From contig NZ_JAADJV010000001.1 of NCBI RefSeq assembly GCF_011684115.1, positions 1,984,001 to 2,048,000 on the forward strand: a stretch of 64,000 nucleotides of DNA, given 5' to 3'. A program made the translations under genes and the position numbers. The notes under the pieces are model-generated. The model did no database searches and was not told the DNA's origin. It was given only the letters and a program-made list of their open reading frames with translations. Source of the stretch: Rahnella aceris (GTDB lineage: Bacteria; Pseudomonadota; Gammaproteobacteria; Enterobacterales; Enterobacteriaceae). How positions within the stretch are numbered: the first letter of the stretch is position 1; every line of letters begins with the position of its first letter. Shown here piece after piece: positions 1,408-37,592 of the stretch.

Positions 1408-3507
1408 TTAACCGAGCTTGATCTCGCGATCTGCTGAGGCAATCGTAGACGGACGGTGGGCGATAAATATTCGCGTAATATCCAGTTCGCTGATCGCCTG
1501 ATTGATGCGCATTTCATTGTCCAGATCTAAATGGCTGGTGGCCTCGTCGAGGAACAGTATCGCCGGACGGCGGTACAGTGCGCGGGCAATCAGCAAACGC
1601 TGTTTCTGCCCGCCGGACAAACTGCCGCCCAGTTCGCTGATCAGCGTTTCATAGCCCATCGGCATCCGTTCGATATCGTCGTGGATGTTACAACGGCGGG
1701 CGCAATCAATAATACGCGCTTCATCTTTCTGCTCATCAAAGCTGGCAATGTTCTCGGCGATAGATCCGGCGAACAACGTGTCATCCTGTAACACACAGGC
1801 GATGCAACTGCGGTAATTGTTCAGTCCGGCGGTGGTGATATCCATACCGTTAATCAGAATGCGGCCTTCGGTGGGCGTCAGCAAACCGGTCATGATCTTC
1901 ATCAGCGTGGTTTTACCCTGCCCCGACGGCCCGGTGATCGCCACACTTTCGCCCGCCGCCACCGACAGGTTTAGCCCGTTGATCAGCGGTGCGGAAAGGC
2001 TGTCGTACTGAAACACCAGATCCCGCACCTCCAGCGACGCTGCCTCGCCCGCCCGCAGCAACTCACGTTCCGGCAGTGATTTCTCGGTGCCGGTCAACGC
2101 GATATCCGCGATACGGTCGCGGTGCAGGGAAAGCATCCGCAGTTGCAACACCATATTCAGCAGACTGGCAGCACGTTCGGAGAACTGCCCGCGGTAGGTG
2201 TTGAAGGCCACAAACATCCCCAGCGTCATATGGCCGTCAATCACCTGCGTCGCCCCCAGCCACAGCAGCGCGACCTGATCGAGCGTGGCGATCAGCGTGT
2301 TGCCGCCGGTAAACATCATCTCAAACCTGGTTTTGCGCACCGTCGCATTGGCGTTATCAATGTTCAGATTGAGCCAGAAATTGGCGCGGGCTTTCGATAA
2401 ACCCAGTGCTTTCAGCGTGCTGATGCCGTAGAGCGTTTCCATAAAGTGCGAACCGGCACGCGCACCTTTAACGATTTGCTCCTCGGAAACCTGGCGGTAA
2501 GCGTTATACGTCGTCAGGCGGAAGATGACATAAATCGCCGTGAAGCCAAGAATCACCCAAATCAGCCAGCCGCCATACAGCACCATCATCACGATTAACC
2601 CGACCGACATAATGCCGTCGATAATACTGTTGACCACGTTGGTGGTCAGCGTGGTACGCAGCGTATCGAGGGAAGTAAAACGCGACTGAATATCCCCGAG
2701 TTTGCGTTTCTCAAAATAATCGAGCGGCAGTTTCATCAGATGATCGAACAGCCGCGCTTTCCATTGCACATCAATCAGCGTACTCATCACCAGCGATGTC
2801 CAGGCGCGTAACATGCTGACGCCGGTGCGGAAAATGATGAAGAACAGCAACCCGAGGCAAATCAGGGTCAGTAAATCCGGGTCTTTCGCCGGGATCACAT
2901 GGTCCATTACCAGTTGCATCCCGACCGGCAGCAGCAGGTTGACCGATTCGATCATCAGCGAGAGGCAGAAGATTTTGGTCAGCGCCGGAATAAGGCCGCT
3001 GACATTGCCCATCATTTTGCGCAGATCCAGCCGTACGCGCGGTTTCTCCGAGGTAAAACCGTTGTCCGGCCACAGCTCGAGTGCCACGCCGGTGAAATGC
3101 TCGGACACCTCGCGCATGCCAAGCGAACGGCGGCCAAAGGCCGGATCGTGAATAATCACTTTGCCCTGTTTAACGCCAACCAGCACCACGAAATGATTGA
3201 GATCCCAGTGCAAAATACACGGCGTTTTCAGCGCGTTCAGCTCATCGATATCCAGCTTTAACGCGCGGGATTTCATCTCATTCGCTGCCGCGATATCCAT
3301 CAGCGTGCGCAGTGTCGCGCCCCGTGAAGATATGCCATAGCGCTGACGCAGGCTTTGCAAGTCCACGTGTTTGCCGTGATAGCCAAACACCATTGCCAGA
3401 CTGGCCAGTCCGCACTCGGCGGCCTCGGTTTGAATAATCTGCGGCACCCGGTGGCGCCAGCTAAAGTGCAGGCGGTCAGCCAGCTCCCGTACGTTATCGA
3501 GATTCAT
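1408..3507 (-). CDS. CvaB-type peptidase-containing ABC exporter (PCAT) for a double-glycine peptide
   Basis: Inner-membrane ABC exporter that removes the leader of a double-glycine-type peptide and drives its export. At 699 residues it is practically the length of CvaB, the microcin V exporter. The N-terminal C39 peptidase domain (about residues 15-140) keeps Gln26, catalytic Cys32 (TEAAECGLASLAM), His105 (HWDLNHFVVL) and Asp121 (IHDPAFG), so it looks active. A membrane domain follows (about 165-460). The ATPase domain has Walker A GPSGQGKTT (526-534), signature LSGGQKQR (630-637), Walker B LFLDEATS (651-658) and an H-loop histidine. It overlaps the 3' end of the CvaA-type gene by 14 bases, so the two are translationally linked. 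No outer-membrane partner is encoded here; by analogy with microcin V it would use TolC. The likely substrate is the small precursor encoded at 5207-5398. Confidence 0.93.
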   Translation of the reverse strand: MNLDNVRELADRLHFSWRHRVPQIIQTEAAECGLASLAMVFGYHGKHVDLQSLRQRYGISSRGATLRTLMDIAAANEMKSRALKLDIDELNALKTPCILHWDLNHFVVLVGVKQGKVIIHDPAFGRRSLGMREVSEHFTGVALELWPDNGFTSEKPRVRLDLRKMMGNVSGLIPALTKIFCLSLMIESVNLLLPVGMQLVMDHVIPAKDPDLLTLICLGLLFFIIFRTGVSMLRAWTSLVMSTLIDVQWKARLFDHLMKLPLDYFEKRKLGDIQSRFTSLDTLRTTLTTNVVNSIIDGIMSVGLIVMMVLYGGWLIWVILGFTAIYVIFRLTTYNAYRQVSEEQIVKGARAGSHFMETLYGISTLKALGLSKARANFWLNLNIDNANATVRKTRFEMMFTGGNTLIATLDQVALLWLGATQVIDGHMTLGMFVAFNTYRGQFSERAASLLNMVLQLRMLSLHRDRIADIALTGTEKSLPERELLRAGEAASLEVRDLVFQYDSLSAPLINGLNLSVAAGESVAITGPSGQGKTTLMKIMTGLLTPTEGRILINGMDITTAGLNNYRSCIACVLQDDTLFAGSIAENIASFDEQKDEARIIDCARRCNIHDDIERMPMGYETLISELGGSLSGGQKQRLLIARALYRRPAILFLDEATSHLDLDNEMRINQAISELDITRIFIAHRPSTIASADREIKLG

Positions 3508-4780
3508 TGATTGGCCCCACCACGCTTTTCTTCATGCTGTAATACGGAGACAACATCCACTGATACAGCGGCCTTTTCTCCAGGAATAACGTCGACTCGG
3601 CTTTCATGCCGCTGGATAAATTCAGCGTTTCGCCGTGCCAGTTCATGGCTTTTTTATCCAGTGAAACAATCACTTTGTAATACGGCCCGCTGATCGTGCC
3701 ATTGGCCGTTCTCGGCGCGCTGGCGTAAGAATTCAGCTCCTGTTCGGAAACCGGCGCAGAGGAAATCGATTCCACCTTGCCGGGGAACTGGCCATATTTT
3801 TCAAACGGATAGGCTTCGTACCGAATATTGATGTGCTCGCCGGCTTTCACGTAAGGCACGCTTTCATTCGGCAGCCAGGCAACGAGAAAGAACGGGGAAT
3901 TACTGGCTGGCACCAGTTGCGCGAGGCTATCACCGGCGTTGACCATCTGTCCGGGCGTGACGCTCAGCGAAGAGATTTTGCCGGAGGTCGGCGCGGTGAT
4001 CAGCAATGAGCCTTTGGCATCGGCCTGCGCCAGCTGGCGTTCGAGGTCATTGCGCTGGTAGCCGTACTGTGAAATCTGGTTATCAAACTCGGCGGCGCGG
4101 GTGACCAGTTCGCTGCGCAGATTGGTGATTTGTAATGCTTCCTGAATCGCCTGGGTGTTCAGGCTCTGGAACGATGTCTGCTGCTGGTAAAACAGGTAGC
4201 GCTGATTATTCAGCTGGTCAGTATTGATCAGGCCCTTCTTCTGATATGCCCCGTAGTTCTGCATGCTCTTTTTCATGGCATCCAGCCCTTCCTGCGCCGA
4301 ATCCACCATGCTTTGTGAGACTTCATGCGCCTTCTGATACTGATCGAGTTGCTGTTGCAGGTTTTGCAGGGTTTGCTGCTTATTGTGTTCCAGCTGGGCA
4401 ATAATGGAATCGATTTGCTCGCGCTGCTTTTTAATAGCGGCGAGCGTGGTGGTACTGACATTCCCCGCCTGCGTCACGCGGCTGACGTCGATTTCATATA
4501 AAGGCTGGCCTTTTTTTACGGGTTTACCGGTATCGACATACAATTTGGTGACCACGCCCTGCTCAGGGCTGAATAAATTAATGCTGTGCGGCTGAGTAAT
4601 GATTTCACCGCTGACGTTGATGCGACGTGTGTAGTTAGCGAAGATCAGGAATACCAGTAAAGCAAACAGGAAGAGGGCCGTGAGTGTCGTGATGATCCAT
4701 AAAGGCCAGCCGGCGAGCAATAAAGCCTTACCCGCCCAGTGACTTTGCTGATGTTCATTTACCTCTTTACGAAAGAGCAT
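3494..4780 (-). CDS. CvaA-type membrane fusion protein (HlyD family) of microcin export
   Basis: Periplasmic adaptor that would join the ABC exporter to TolC. The protein has one N-terminal membrane segment (about residues 20-45, rich in L, I, F and A) after a short cytoplasmic part. A first lipoyl half (NVSGEIITQPHSINLF), a long Gln-rich coiled coil (about 100-270) and a second lipoyl half with TAPTSGKISSLSV follow. The C-terminus closely matches E. coli CvaA as remembered (MKAESTLFLEKR..YQWMLSP.Y.MK....GPIN). I chose the ATG at 4780 (MLFRKEVNEHQQ, 428 residues) because it aligns with the CvaA start. An upstream GTG at 4873 would add 31 residues unlike the family. First gene of the exporter operon, divergent from the microcin gene. 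Confidence 0.92.
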   Translation of the reverse strand: MLFRKEVNEHQQSHWAGKALLLAGWPLWIITTLTALFLFALLVFLIFANYTRRINVSGEIITQPHSINLFSPEQGVVTKLYVDTGKPVKKGQPLYEIDVSRVTQAGNVSTTTLAAIKKQREQIDSIIAQLEHNKQQTLQNLQQQLDQYQKAHEVSQSMVDSAQEGLDAMKKSMQNYGAYQKKGLINTDQLNNQRYLFYQQQTSFQSLNTQAIQEALQITNLRSELVTRAAEFDNQISQYGYQRNDLERQLAQADAKGSLLITAPTSGKISSLSVTPGQMVNAGDSLAQLVPASNSPFFLVAWLPNESVPYVKAGEHINIRYEAYPFEKYGQFPGKVESISSAPVSEQELNSYASAPRTANGTISGPYYKVIVSLDKKAMNWHGETLNLSSGMKAESTLFLEKRPLYQWMLSPYYSMKKSVVGPINESR

Positions 4781-5049
4781 ATTTAAGTGTTCCAGAAAAA
4801 CCGGCTGTAAAAACAGAATCTTTGAAAGATAGCAGCACATAATCACGCTGCCACCGCGATTACTCTGAAACACCGGATGAAGTTATTACCACGCAGGGAT
4901 AATTGCGCAGTAATATTAATTTCAATGTCTTATAAAAAATAACCACCTGACCTCTGGTTCGATTATTTTTTGCACATTGCATTAATTATTCAGATTTAAA
5001 AATATCTTAATAATGATTTCAAACAATGAGTTACATATCTAAATTCACA

Positions 5050-5065
5050 TAGGAGATTATTCCTA
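5050..5065. promoter_or_regulatory. RcsAB-box-like inverted repeat upstream of the microcin gene
   Basis: The sequence TAGGAGATTATTCCTA is an inverted repeat (TAGGA / TCCTA) in the AT-rich 426-base region between the exporter operon and the microcin gene. Its right 14 bases match the RcsAB consensus TAAGAATATTCCTA at 11 positions. It lies about 140 bases before the microcin start codon. Rcs control is only an inference; another dimeric regulator could bind here. Confidence 0.35.
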
Positions 5066-5206
5066 GTCAAATTCCGTCCGCAGTACTCTAGGCTTAATCC
5101 CTGTGAAGACATTGCGTAGAAATTATCTCCATAGACTTACTCAATGTTTTCATCGCCCCCGTTATTTAAGGGGACTTGCTTTAACAGATTAAAAGGAAGG
5201 CCTAAG

Positions 5207-5398
5207 ATGAAACAATTAACAGAACATGATATTGAAATGGTTAATGGTGCGGGTTGGTCGGAAGATGTTAATAAGGTTGCCGATCGCCTATCAAACTTTG
5301 GTCAGGACGCGGTGAGTGACACCAGTAATGCGGTGAACAAGGCGTATTCACAAATTTCCGATGGTCTTGCTAAAGCACAGAACTATCTGACAACCTAG
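5207..5398 (+). CDS. Putative class II microcin (double-glycine-type) precursor
   Basis: A 63-residue peptide. The first 15 residues, MKQLTEHDIEMVNGA, fit the class II microcin leader pattern (microcin V MRTLTLNELDSVSGG; microcin L MREITLNEMNNVSGA), with cleavage expected after Gly-Ala. The mature part would be 48 residues starting GWSEDVNKVADRLSNFGQ. It has no cysteine and no Gly-rich transmembrane stretch, has six acidic and four basic residues (net about -2), and shows hydrophobic residues at 3-4 spacing, suggesting amphipathic helix. The start at 5207 is set by the Shine-Dalgarno AAGGAAGG; an upstream in-frame start at 5144 would bury the leader. It is transcribed away from the exporter operon and has its own terminator. 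No immunity gene is visible beside it. I do not recognise the mature sequence as a named microcin; a secreted signalling or surface peptide is an alternative. Confidence 0.8.
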   Translation: MKQLTEHDIEMVNGAGWSEDVNKVADRLSNFGQDAVSDTSNAVNKAYSQISDGLAKAQNYLTT

Positions 5399-5459
5399 TT
5401 TATAAACAGCTTTTGTTGTACCGAAAGTTAATTTATAAGCAACTTAGTCAGAGTAATAC

Positions 5460-5487
5460 AAGCCCCCGTTAATTTGGGGGCTTTTTT
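5460..5487 (+). terminator. Terminator of the microcin gene
   Basis: An 8-bp stem (AAGCCCCC / GGGGGCTT) with loop GTTAATTT is followed by TTTT on the plus strand, 61 bases after the microcin stop. It shows the peptide gene is a monocistronic unit and leaves no room for a co-transcribed immunity gene. Confidence 0.9.
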
Positions 5488-35499: not shown

Positions 35500-35870
35500 T
35501 TAATTTAAACTTTTTGCAAACTTCTGTGCCATAAGATCATCGTGATGGCGCAGAATATTCTACCTAATCATTATCTTTAACGATTAAAAACTCATCCTGA
35601 CAAGCATTTTGGCGAATTCTGTACAACGTCGTGTTTAGGTGAAATAGGGGTGACAAAGTGTATGGAACCCTTACTTAGGCAACATTTTATGCCGAATATA
35701 GTAGATAATTATTTATATTATCAAGAAAGATTTATTGAATTATAAGTAGGAATAATCCTACCGTGACATGTATTATTGCCATCAAGATAACATTGCTAGT
35801 GATATATCATTTTCAGATATAAATCTTAATGCCTGATGTTGAGTAAAGACCTGCCAGTCGGAGAAGTGTC
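35500..35870. other. Non-coding, AT-rich spacer before the diguanylate cyclase
   Basis: 371 bases, AT-rich after 35640, with no credible gene, hairpin terminator or recognisable regulator site. It probably holds the promoter of the cyclase gene; rsmF appears to lack an obvious terminator here. Confidence 0.4.
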
Positions 35871-37592
35871 ATGTCGGATGAAATGAAACTCGAATCAGCA
35901 GATGGGCTGCTATTACAGCAAATGGCCAGCCTGCGGGATATCATCGATAACAATTCTGACTGGATCTGGGAAGTCGATACGCAGGGGCGTTATGTTTTCT
36001 CTTCCAATAAATGCATCGAGTTTCTCGGTGTTCCACCTGAAAAAGTATTAGGCAAAACGCCTTTTGACTTCATGCCACCTGATGAAGCCAAACGGGTTGG
36101 CGAGCAGTTTGCTGCTATCGTCGAACGACGCGCGCCATTCGGCGGTTTGCTGAACCGTAATATTCGCCCTGACGGGACGGAAGTCATTCTTGAAACCAGC
36201 GGTGTTCCGCTGTTTGACAACGAAGGTAATTTCCGGGGTTATCGGGGGATCGATCGTAACCTGACCAGCCTTGATCAGGCTCCGGGTCAGCGCCTCTTCC
36301 AGCTTGAAACCATTTATTCCAATGCGCCGGTCGGCCTGTGTTTTATCGACCTGCAAATGCGCTACGTCACCGTAAACGATGCCATGGCGAATATTATCGG
36401 TTTACAACCTTACGAAGCGATTGGTCGTAAAGTCGGCGTGTTTCTGCCCGGTCTTTCTCCGTTGCTCAATAATGCACTTGAACTTGCGAAGCGGAATGAA
36501 ACCACGCCGGACCGCGAATTTTCCGTTCCCGGTAAGAATCAGGTTTTCTTTGTACGTATCAAAGCCGCCTGTGATACGCAGAATCAGCTTAATGGCCTTT
36601 CCGTCGCGATGACCGACATTACCAGCCTCAAACGTATGGAAAGAGCACTGCGTGAAAGCCAGGAGCATTACCGCAATATGGTTGAGCTGAACCCGCAAAT
36701 CCCGTGGACAGCCGATCCGCGCGGTCTGCTCAACGACGTCAGCTCGCGCTTCCAGCGGATTACCGGCATGACGCGACAGGATATTCTGGCAGATAAGTGG
36801 ATCCAGAGTATGCATGTGGAAGACCGCCGTGCTGCCGTACAAACCTGGGAACATTGCCTGAAGACCGGCGCCCCCCTGGATATTGAAGTTCGTTTCTGCC
36901 ACGTAGACCGCGGCTGGAACTGGATGCGCATTCGTGCCGCAGCGAGCTATGCCGCTGACGGCTCCATTCAGCGCTGGTATGGCACCGCCGAAGATGTGCA
37001 TGAACGTAAGTTGCTGGAACTGAAACTGGTCAAAGCTAACCGCCGTCTGGAAATTCAGGCGCGCACGGACTCGCTGACCAAATTGCCGAACCGCCGTGAA
37101 TTTAAAAAAGTGCTCAGCCATGAATACATGCGTGCCAAGCGTAACCGCACGCCGCTGACCGTGGTGATGATCGACATCGATTACTTCAAACATTTTAACG
37201 ATCACTACGGCCATCTTTCCGGTGACGCCTGTCTGCGTCTGGTCGCCCGTACATTACGAAAATCACTCAAACGCAGCACCGATGTCGTGACACGTTTTGG
37301 CGGCGAAGAATTTGCCGCGATTCTGCCGGATACGGATTTGAAAGGGGCGTGGATTGTGGCGCAGCATATTATGGAATCCATTGAAGTGCTGGGCATCAAA
37401 CACAGCTTCAGTGAATTTAATCGCGTCACCATCAGCCAGGGGATTGCGACCTATATGCCAGATCAGGATCCGGACATTGAGGATCAGTCGGATATTGTGA
37501 GTGCCGCTGATGAAGCGCTGTACCTCTCAAAAAACAACGGTCGCAATCAGATTAATGCCATGCCCGTCTCGGTAAGATTCAATAAACTTTAA
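35871..37592 (+). CDS. PAS-PAS-PAS-GGDEF diguanylate cyclase
   Basis: Soluble 573-residue sensor enzyme predicted to make cyclic di-GMP. Three PAS-type domains occur in order at about residues 22-130 (NSDWIWEVDTQGRYVF), 145-255 and 265-380 (the last with a PAC tail, RWYGTAEDVHERK). They are joined by a helix (LLELKLVKANRRLEIQARTD) to the GGDEF domain at 400-565. The active loop is GGEEF (477-481). An inhibitory I-site RSTD lies at 468-471, exactly five residues before it, so product feedback is likely. No membrane segment is seen. The PAS ligand is unknown. It lies between rsmF and yebV, where E. coli has no such gene. Confidence 0.92.
   Translation: MSDEMKLESADGLLLQQMASLRDIIDNNSDWIWEVDTQGRYVFSSNKCIEFLGVPPEKVLGKTPFDFMPPDEAKRVGEQFAAIVERRAPFGGLLNRNIRPDGTEVILETSGVPLFDNEGNFRGYRGIDRNLTSLDQAPGQRLFQLETIYSNAPVGLCFIDLQMRYVTVNDAMANIIGLQPYEAIGRKVGVFLPGLSPLLNNALELAKRNETTPDREFSVPGKNQVFFVRIKAACDTQNQLNGLSVAMTDITSLKRMERALRESQEHYRNMVELNPQIPWTADPRGLLNDVSSRFQRITGMTRQDILADKWIQSMHVEDRRAAVQTWEHCLKTGAPLDIEVRFCHVDRGWNWMRIRAAASYAADGSIQRWYGTAEDVHERKLLELKLVKANRRLEIQARTDSLTKLPNRREFKKVLSHEYMRAKRNRTPLTVVMIDIDYFKHFNDHYGHLSGDACLRLVARTLRKSLKRSTDVVTRFGGEEFAAILPDTDLKGAWIVAQHIMESIEVLGIKHSFSEFNRVTISQGIATYMPDQDPDIEDQSDIVSAADEALYLSKNNGRNQINAMPVSVRFNKL

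Follow-up and report, generated by a model that had tools for sequence, protein, structure and literature searches.

A conserved double-glycine peptide with a CvaA/CvaB-type exporter and an RcsB-like promoter in Rahnella

Introduction

The closest described relatives of the locus reported here are MccV-type class II microcins. MccV is exported through CvaA, CvaB and TolC, and the passages of PMC9746304 and PMC10233263 that define the class give it five parts, one of which is an immunity protein that is typically encoded beside the precursor gene. Leaders of this class have 15–18 residues and end in GG or GA, and the exporter combines a C39 peptidase-ATP-binding cassette exporter (PCAT) that carries a catalytic triad with a membrane fusion protein (MFP). 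We describe a small-peptide gene and a PCAT-MFP gene pair in a 64,000-nucleotide stretch of the Rahnella aceris genome (contig NZ_JAADJV010000001.1, positions 1,984,001 to 2,048,000; the whole stretch is called the window below). An initial annotation of this DNA had proposed that the peptide is a new type of microcin or a secreted signal.

The main texts of PMC9746304, PMC11494933 and PMC13174018 make no mention of Rahnella, Ewingella or Rouxiella, and that of PMC13101503 makes no mention of Rahnella. In a passage of PMC11634061, Rahnella is listed among the targets of other microcins. Microcin hits are reported for 51.9% of Yersiniaceae species in PMC9746304, and the precursor described here may already stand as a candidate in the supplement of that paper. 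Literature searches on Rahnella, microcins, colicin V, bacteriocins and CvaB, and on RcsB and microcins, gave no paper on this locus among the matches listed.

Results

A double-glycine precursor is encoded head-to-head with a CvaA/CvaB-type exporter

The peptide gene has 63 codons and lies at positions 5207–5398 of the plus strand, comprising a leader (5207–5251) that ends in Gly-Ala, a core (5252–5395) and a stop codon (5396–5398). The N-terminus of the peptide, MKQLTEHDIEMVNGA, is a double-glycine leader of the GA type and has 15 residues, as in class II microcins. Both the precursor and its leader are as the initial annotation had described them, and the ribosome-binding site that it had assigned to the gene is present as AGGAAGG at 5194–5200 (plus strand). 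The predicted terminator corresponds to a hairpin (5460–5483) followed by a T-tract ending at 5487 on the same strand. A terminator scan is weak evidence alone, with nine sites found in the window and 8.2 expected in shuffled sequence; however, both the hairpin and the T-tract persist despite base changes across the alignment of Rahnella loci. We also noted that a 10-mer, TCAGAGTAAT, occurs twice, at ~4860–4875 (minus strand) within the MFP leader region and at 5446–5458 (plus strand) just before the terminator of the peptide gene; it is retained in many of the aligned Rahnella loci and may be due to chance.

Divergent from the peptide gene are two genes on the minus strand, encoding an MFP of the HlyD/CvaA type (3494–4783, with a longer GTG start possible at 4873) and a CvaB-like PCAT of 699 amino acids (1408–3507). 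The two open reading frames (ORFs) overlap by 14 nt. The PCAT has the Pfam domains Peptidase_C39, ABC_membrane and ABC_tran, and the MFP has HlyD-type Pfam domains. The catalytic triad of the PCAT is C32, H105 and D121, and the same numbering is given for CvaB in a passage of PMC9746304. The PCAT shares 57% identity with both CvaB and MchF, and 65% with an exporter encoded on an Ewingella plasmid. Hence, the earlier description of a head-to-head, two-gene exporter of the CvaA/CvaB type with an intact C39 triad is upheld. The best 25 NCBIfam models listed all match the exporter, below their cut-offs, and none of them matches the peptide.

The genome that contains the window encodes a single C39 domain. 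A profile of 16 cargo peptides from sister systems, which would miss a cargo with an unlike leader, found only the window peptide in this genome at E values up to 10. The presence of one C39 domain and one profile-found cargo suggests that the peptide and exporter form a dedicated pair, and the conserved parts of a double-glycine export pathway argue strongly that the unit secretes the peptide, presumably with TolC.

The peptide and exporter genes are conserved together

We found the peptide in 15 of 98 genomes of relatives, comprising every one of the 14 genomes of the genus, counting that of the window, and a single further genome. Peptides from the genus are 97–100% identical to the window peptide. 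The 63-residue sequence has further relatives: among 5.8 billion proteins we found 11, with 67–98% identity, ten of 63 residues and one of 53. Two of the 11 carry organism names, Ewingella allii and Rouxiella sp. Mn2063. The relatives from Ewingella and Rouxiella are entered in public records as 'chemotaxis protein', a name that nothing we saw supports.

A scan of GTDB species genomes, which works by word patterns and may omit the window's own record, found 16 loci: ten from Rahnella, two from Ewingella americana, two from unclassified Enterobacterales, and one each from Hafnia psychrotolerans and Rouxiella aceris. The MFP and PCAT genes adjoin the peptide gene in 15 of the 16; in the sixteenth (L097) the contig begins 127 nt upstream of the peptide gene, and in another locus (L100) the contig end cuts the PCAT gene. 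Co-occurrence of the three genes in related genomes had been named beforehand as a check on the locus, and it is borne out by these 15 loci. The possibility of a chance ORF was rejected on the basis of peptide conservation and exporter adjacency. One flank of the window locus is hemB, identified as porphobilinogen synthase by its NCBIfam match; on the other flank is a gene for a protein matching TIGR01620 (NCBIfam), which we take to be ycjF, followed by what is presumably ycjX. The ycjF gene follows in 15 of the 16 loci, L100 being too short. The hemB gene is beside the exporter in nine of the ten Rahnella loci, the tenth being L097, and was not found in the six non-Rahnella loci.

Four of 149 genomes sampled from the family match the peptide at E ≤0.1, one of them (G121) with only 36% identity and an E value of 0.047. 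A plasmid-borne bacteriocin was rejected because none of 72,556 plasmid records encodes a relative of the peptide. Presence in all 14 genomes of the genus, together with a protein divergence comparable to that of PCAT and hemB (see below), indicates that the peptide gene behaves as a core gene. By contrast, in one panel of Serratia marcescens described in a passage of PMC13101503, 12 of 24 strains have any of three microcins.

The core is predicted to form a helix of four 11-residue repeats

The initial annotation had described a Cys-free, mildly acidic, helical core. Consistent with this, the core has 48 residues, no Cys and a net charge of –2, and AlphaFold2, supplied with eight sequences, predicts a leader helix at residues 6–14 and a single core helix at residues 17–62, with block-mean values of the predicted local distance difference test of 91–97 from residue 21. 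The C-terminus, SQISDGLAKAQNYLTT, is not a Gly/Ser-rich siderophore-attachment region of the class IIb type. The peptide fits no family at the curated cut-offs of Pfam and NCBIfam, including the Pfam MccV model and the NCBIfam microcin models.

The core consists of four 11-mers, with a lag-11 autocorrelation of hydrophobicity of 0.55 (p 0.0002, 5000 shuffles), and the best helix angle is 99 degrees. The same periodicity is found in the Ewingella sequence, in two Rouxiella sequences and in one sister peptide; in a second sister peptide the autocorrelation is weaker (0.33, p 0.009). Undecad helices occur in proteins of lipid surfaces, such as synuclein and perilipin. The core resembles these helices in undecad hydrophobic periodicity and in an angle near 99 degrees; it differs in coming from a bacterial peptide that is predicted to be secreted, and the likeness is one of periodicity and angle.

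No candidate immunity gene is common to the loci

We searched the three gaps of 15 loci for ORFs of at least 40 codons and grouped them by similarity. No such ORF is common to the 15 loci in these gaps, the search being limited to adjacent ORFs of at least 40 codons, so that a distant or shorter gene lies outside its scope. Some frames recur in part of the set: beside the MFP start in six of ten Rahnella loci, in the hemB leader in four of ten, and in smaller groups of two or three. Those Rahnella frames for which upstream bases were inspected have no ribosome site, and the window is in none of these groups. Downstream of PCAT, the five non-Rahnella loci also have recurring frames, on both strands; four of these loci have a tRNA-Tyr gene there, and in the fifth (L101) no tRNA was found. 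The gaps of the window itself contain one unshared 40-codon ORF. Within this scope, the locus differs from the class II definition in having no visible cognate immunity gene next to the precursor gene.

The putative promoter of the peptide gene has the spacing of that of rprA

The sequence upstream of the peptide gene, TAGGAGATTATTCCTA, includes a conserved inverted repeat (5050–5065) that contains an RcsB-like 14-mer (5052–5065), and a –10-like hexamer, TAGGCT (5089–5094), whose first base is 37 nt downstream of that of the 14-mer; all are on the plus strand. In passages of PMC5651002, rprA is described as an RcsB homodimer target in E. coli. We modelled RcsB sites using only rprA promoters of relatives (24 sites, 12 of them different), having dropped two of 26 rprA matches: L144, which has no box by pattern, and L156, a second, weak match in G014. 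With L097 excluded, we compared 16 promoters of the peptide gene; in 15 of them, with box scores of 7.1–8.8, the distance from the first base of the box to that of TAGNNT is exactly 37 nt. The rprA promoters of the same genome and of five others, all six that were checked, have TA[GC]TAT with the same 37-nt spacing. Within the window, 24 positions score at least 7.9, and two of these have TAnnnT at +37. A box score above 5 combined with the 37-nt spacing was found for none of 33 sister peptides; the positive control (L048) has both.

We set aside an alternative register in which a 16-mer palindrome is the box, with a 6-nt spacing. The 14-mer register was preferred because of the rprA spacing results and because Hafnia psychrotolerans reads TGAGATTGTTCTTA, which is near the rprA form. 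An RcsAB consensus reaches the site only at three mismatches, a level at which the window has nine sites and 3.0 are expected. Overall, the peptide promoter is like that of rprA in the 37-nt distance between an RcsB-like box and a –10-like hexamer, and unlike it in having a weaker box and in driving the mRNA of a peptide. This architecture suggests that the peptide gene is under Rcs control. The best-scoring RcsB-like site of the window is a different one, a perfect palindrome, TAGGAATAATCCTA, at 35747–35760, ~110 nt upstream of an ORF (35871–37592) that, from reading its sequence, we take to encode a PAS-GGDEF diguanylate cyclase.

The transcription unit has a covarying 5′UTR and, within Rahnella, low synonymous divergence

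The alignment of the 5′ untranslated region (5′UTR) from 16 loci, in which L097 was kept, was folded with RNAalifold into a hairpin of 14 pairs (5103–5153, plus strand), five of them changed on both sides, and a short second hairpin of four pairs (5157–5173, plus strand), one of them changed on both sides. In total, six of the 18 pairs are changed on both sides and 96.2% of cells pair; neither value was reached in 500 shuffles. The count of further pair types was reached by 26 of 500 shuffles. Sliding the partners by 1–3 columns gave pairing below 50%, with up to four pairs changed on both sides. When the 5′UTR of the window is folded by itself, the result moderately surpasses that of shuffles (z –1.84). 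Searched with a covariance model, all 14 genomes of the genus and G037 have the element, and three others match only at E values of 0.06–0.8. Rfam matches to the 5′UTR and to the trailer are all below the gathering score, and a known RNA family was therefore rejected for both.

Conservation across the block 5045–5402 is 100% in the –10 region, 94% in the 5′UTR, 99% in the leader codons and 97% in the core codons, compared with 61% in the adjacent spacer (4901–5044) and 87% in the flanking genes. The stretch between the box and the –10 hexamer is only 67% conserved, and the 3′ part before the terminator is variable. We measured selection using the window and nine Rahnella loci, with L097, G003, G010 and G012 left out of the counts, the last three being present in the alignment of Rahnella loci. 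The peptide has a ratio of nonsynonymous to synonymous divergence (dN/dS) of 0.126, compared with 0.024 for PCAT, 0.032 for MFP and 0.020 for hemB; adding three loci (L099, L101 and L102) gives 0.112 for the peptide. The higher ratio of the peptide is due to a low dS (0.097, compared with 0.48–0.69 in five neighbours), since its dN (0.012) is similar to that of PCAT (0.014) and hemB (0.010).

The analysis of the proportion of synonymous differences (pS) also used L098. Within Rahnella, pS of the peptide gene is 0.091, and none of 1963 windows of 63 codons from the five neighbours is as low. Between genera, pS is 0.558 and 175 of 1701 neighbour windows are as low; this comparison counts against synonymous constraint, and is itself weakened by saturation. 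Codon optimisation was rejected as the source of the low pS: adaptation to codon usage, with the neighbour genes as reference, is 0.55 for the peptide gene and 0.66–0.71 for the neighbours, and its GC content at third codon positions is 0.40.

Sister exporters have other cargo

We found exporters at E 1e-120 or better in 39 of the 149 family genomes. Of 40 such exporter regions examined, 24 encode one or more peptides whose leader fits a double-glycine pattern and 16 encode none; one of the 24 (L048) belongs to the window peptide's own family. Among the 39 sister regions (L049–L087), 23 have small peptides beside the exporter by the leader pattern. The sister loci, chromosomal or plasmid-borne in Enterobacteriaceae, encode exporters that are 44–75% identical among the regions compared. 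Their peptides align with the window peptide in the leader but not in the core, most sister cores being Gly-rich or hydrophobic, and we rejected core homology because the alignment is limited to the leader. None of the 33 sister peptides has the box with its 37-nt spacing. On reading the ORF tables of 12 sister regions, without a formal test, we saw no small transmembrane ORF that is regularly paired with the peptides.

We also noted the cargo of three sister regions. L049 (7025–17382), from one genome, combines two MFP-PCAT pairs with about six peptides of the double-glycine type, which lie between the pairs and next to them. Near position 6858 of L080, beside the second PCAT of G037, is a double-glycine peptide with Cys/Pro-rich repeats of the PKPVCP type in its core. 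In L065, a tandem array near one exporter encodes three near-identical double-glycine peptides that differ in length (12340, 13023 and 13707, minus strand).

Discussion

We propose that the locus of Rahnella, Ewingella and Rouxiella is a secretion unit dedicated to a double-glycine peptide. Its weak promoter would be activated by the envelope-stress phosphorelay through the regulator RcsB, to produce a short mRNA with a structured 5′UTR, a step that we infer because of the promoter architecture and the covariation. The C39 domain of the PCAT would recognise the 63-residue precursor and cut after Gly14-Ala15, and the core would exit via the PCAT, the MFP and presumably TolC, as the conserved parts suggest. 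The 48-residue product, probably on a lipid or lipopolysaccharide surface, would form a long amphipathic helix of four 11-residue repeats, and may serve the producer's own envelope or its community. That the peptide is a conserved, exported helix under control of Rcs or envelope stress, with a surface-active or signalling role, rather than a classical microcin with paired immunity, is a reading from sequence to which we give an even chance.

Several observations weigh against it. The structure model is built on eight close sequences, with a predicted template modelling score of 0.52, and amphipathic helices are common among antibacterial peptides. The 14-mer of the peptide promoter scores 8.0, compared with 20.1 for the rprA box of the same genome, and ranks 23rd in the window; its score alone is thus weak, and the argument is the architecture from box to –10 hexamer. 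The box is absent in Rouxiella aceris, to which the Rcs step would not apply, and sites at other spacing exceed a score of 8.0 in four of the 33 sister peptides. Moreover, eight of ten sister peptides match Pfam MccV weakly, and two of the ten match the NCBIfam E492 microcin model, all below cut-off. These matches indicate that the exporter clade may well serve microcins, and the sister systems look more microcin-like than that of the window. Finally, a passage of PMC10233263 mentions double-glycine bacteriocins of Bacteroides that lack an adjacent immunity gene, so a missing one does not exclude a bacteriocin.

These last points favour an unusual class IIa microcin, whose exported helix would kill relatives after uptake or membrane insertion, and whose producer would be protected by a distant immunity gene or by a missing receptor or target. 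So do the microcin form of the leader, the triad-bearing PCAT with its identity to CvaB and MchF, and the leader-level profile match to the sister peptides; with MccV the locus also shares the placing of the MFP gene beside the precursor gene. The locus departs from MccV-type systems in having no common candidate immunity ORF, a core-gene distribution, an acidic core of 11-mer repeats without Cys, an RcsB-like promoter and a structured 5′UTR, and the peptide fits no microcin model and has no plasmid relative. Because no immunity gene was found and all 14 genomes of the genus carry the peptide, we do not regard microcin identity as a strong inference; it is the main rival to our reading, possible and rather unlikely. 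Of the original proposal of a new microcin or a secreted signal, the double-glycine precursor and its conserved CvaA/CvaB-type exporter stand, and the microcin half gains no support from the gaps between the genes. The secreted signal may hold, and to it we add a surface-active role and Rcs control.

The block 5045–5402, far better conserved than the flanking spacers, is also what would be expected if the RcsB-like promoter drove an rprA-like small RNA whose 5′ part and coding region regulate other mRNAs, the peptide being an additional product. The low pS within Rahnella and the covarying hairpin fit such a dual-function RNA, which we nonetheless judge improbable given the ordinary pS between genera, the exporter that is always adjacent where visible, and the variable 3′ part before the terminator. 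The pattern of pS, low within Rahnella and ordinary between genera, could alternatively reflect recent spread or recombination of the gene for an ordinary, highly expressed secreted peptide, rather than constraint. This we hold to be more improbable still: conservation does not extend beyond the transcription unit, the spacers next to it are strongly diverged, and distances in the block broadly track those of the flanking genes.

Returning to the surface-active or signalling peptide, a more specific and tentative proposal, to which we would give less than an even chance, is that a microcin-type exporter here serves a function other than toxicity, with the Rcs-controlled 11-mer helix coating or signalling at the envelope or at interfaces, and with the mRNA itself under sequence constraint. 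If true, secreted surface-active helical peptides would have a Gram-negative counterpart here. Genome mining tends to label a double-glycine peptide beside a CvaB-like pump a microcin, and some microcin candidates in surveys may not be toxins. With one peptide and one exporter, the system is a simple one for deletion tests. That secreted peptides of other kinds also take this export route would be shown by a core-gene pair that has no visible immunity gene and what looks like an envelope-stress promoter.

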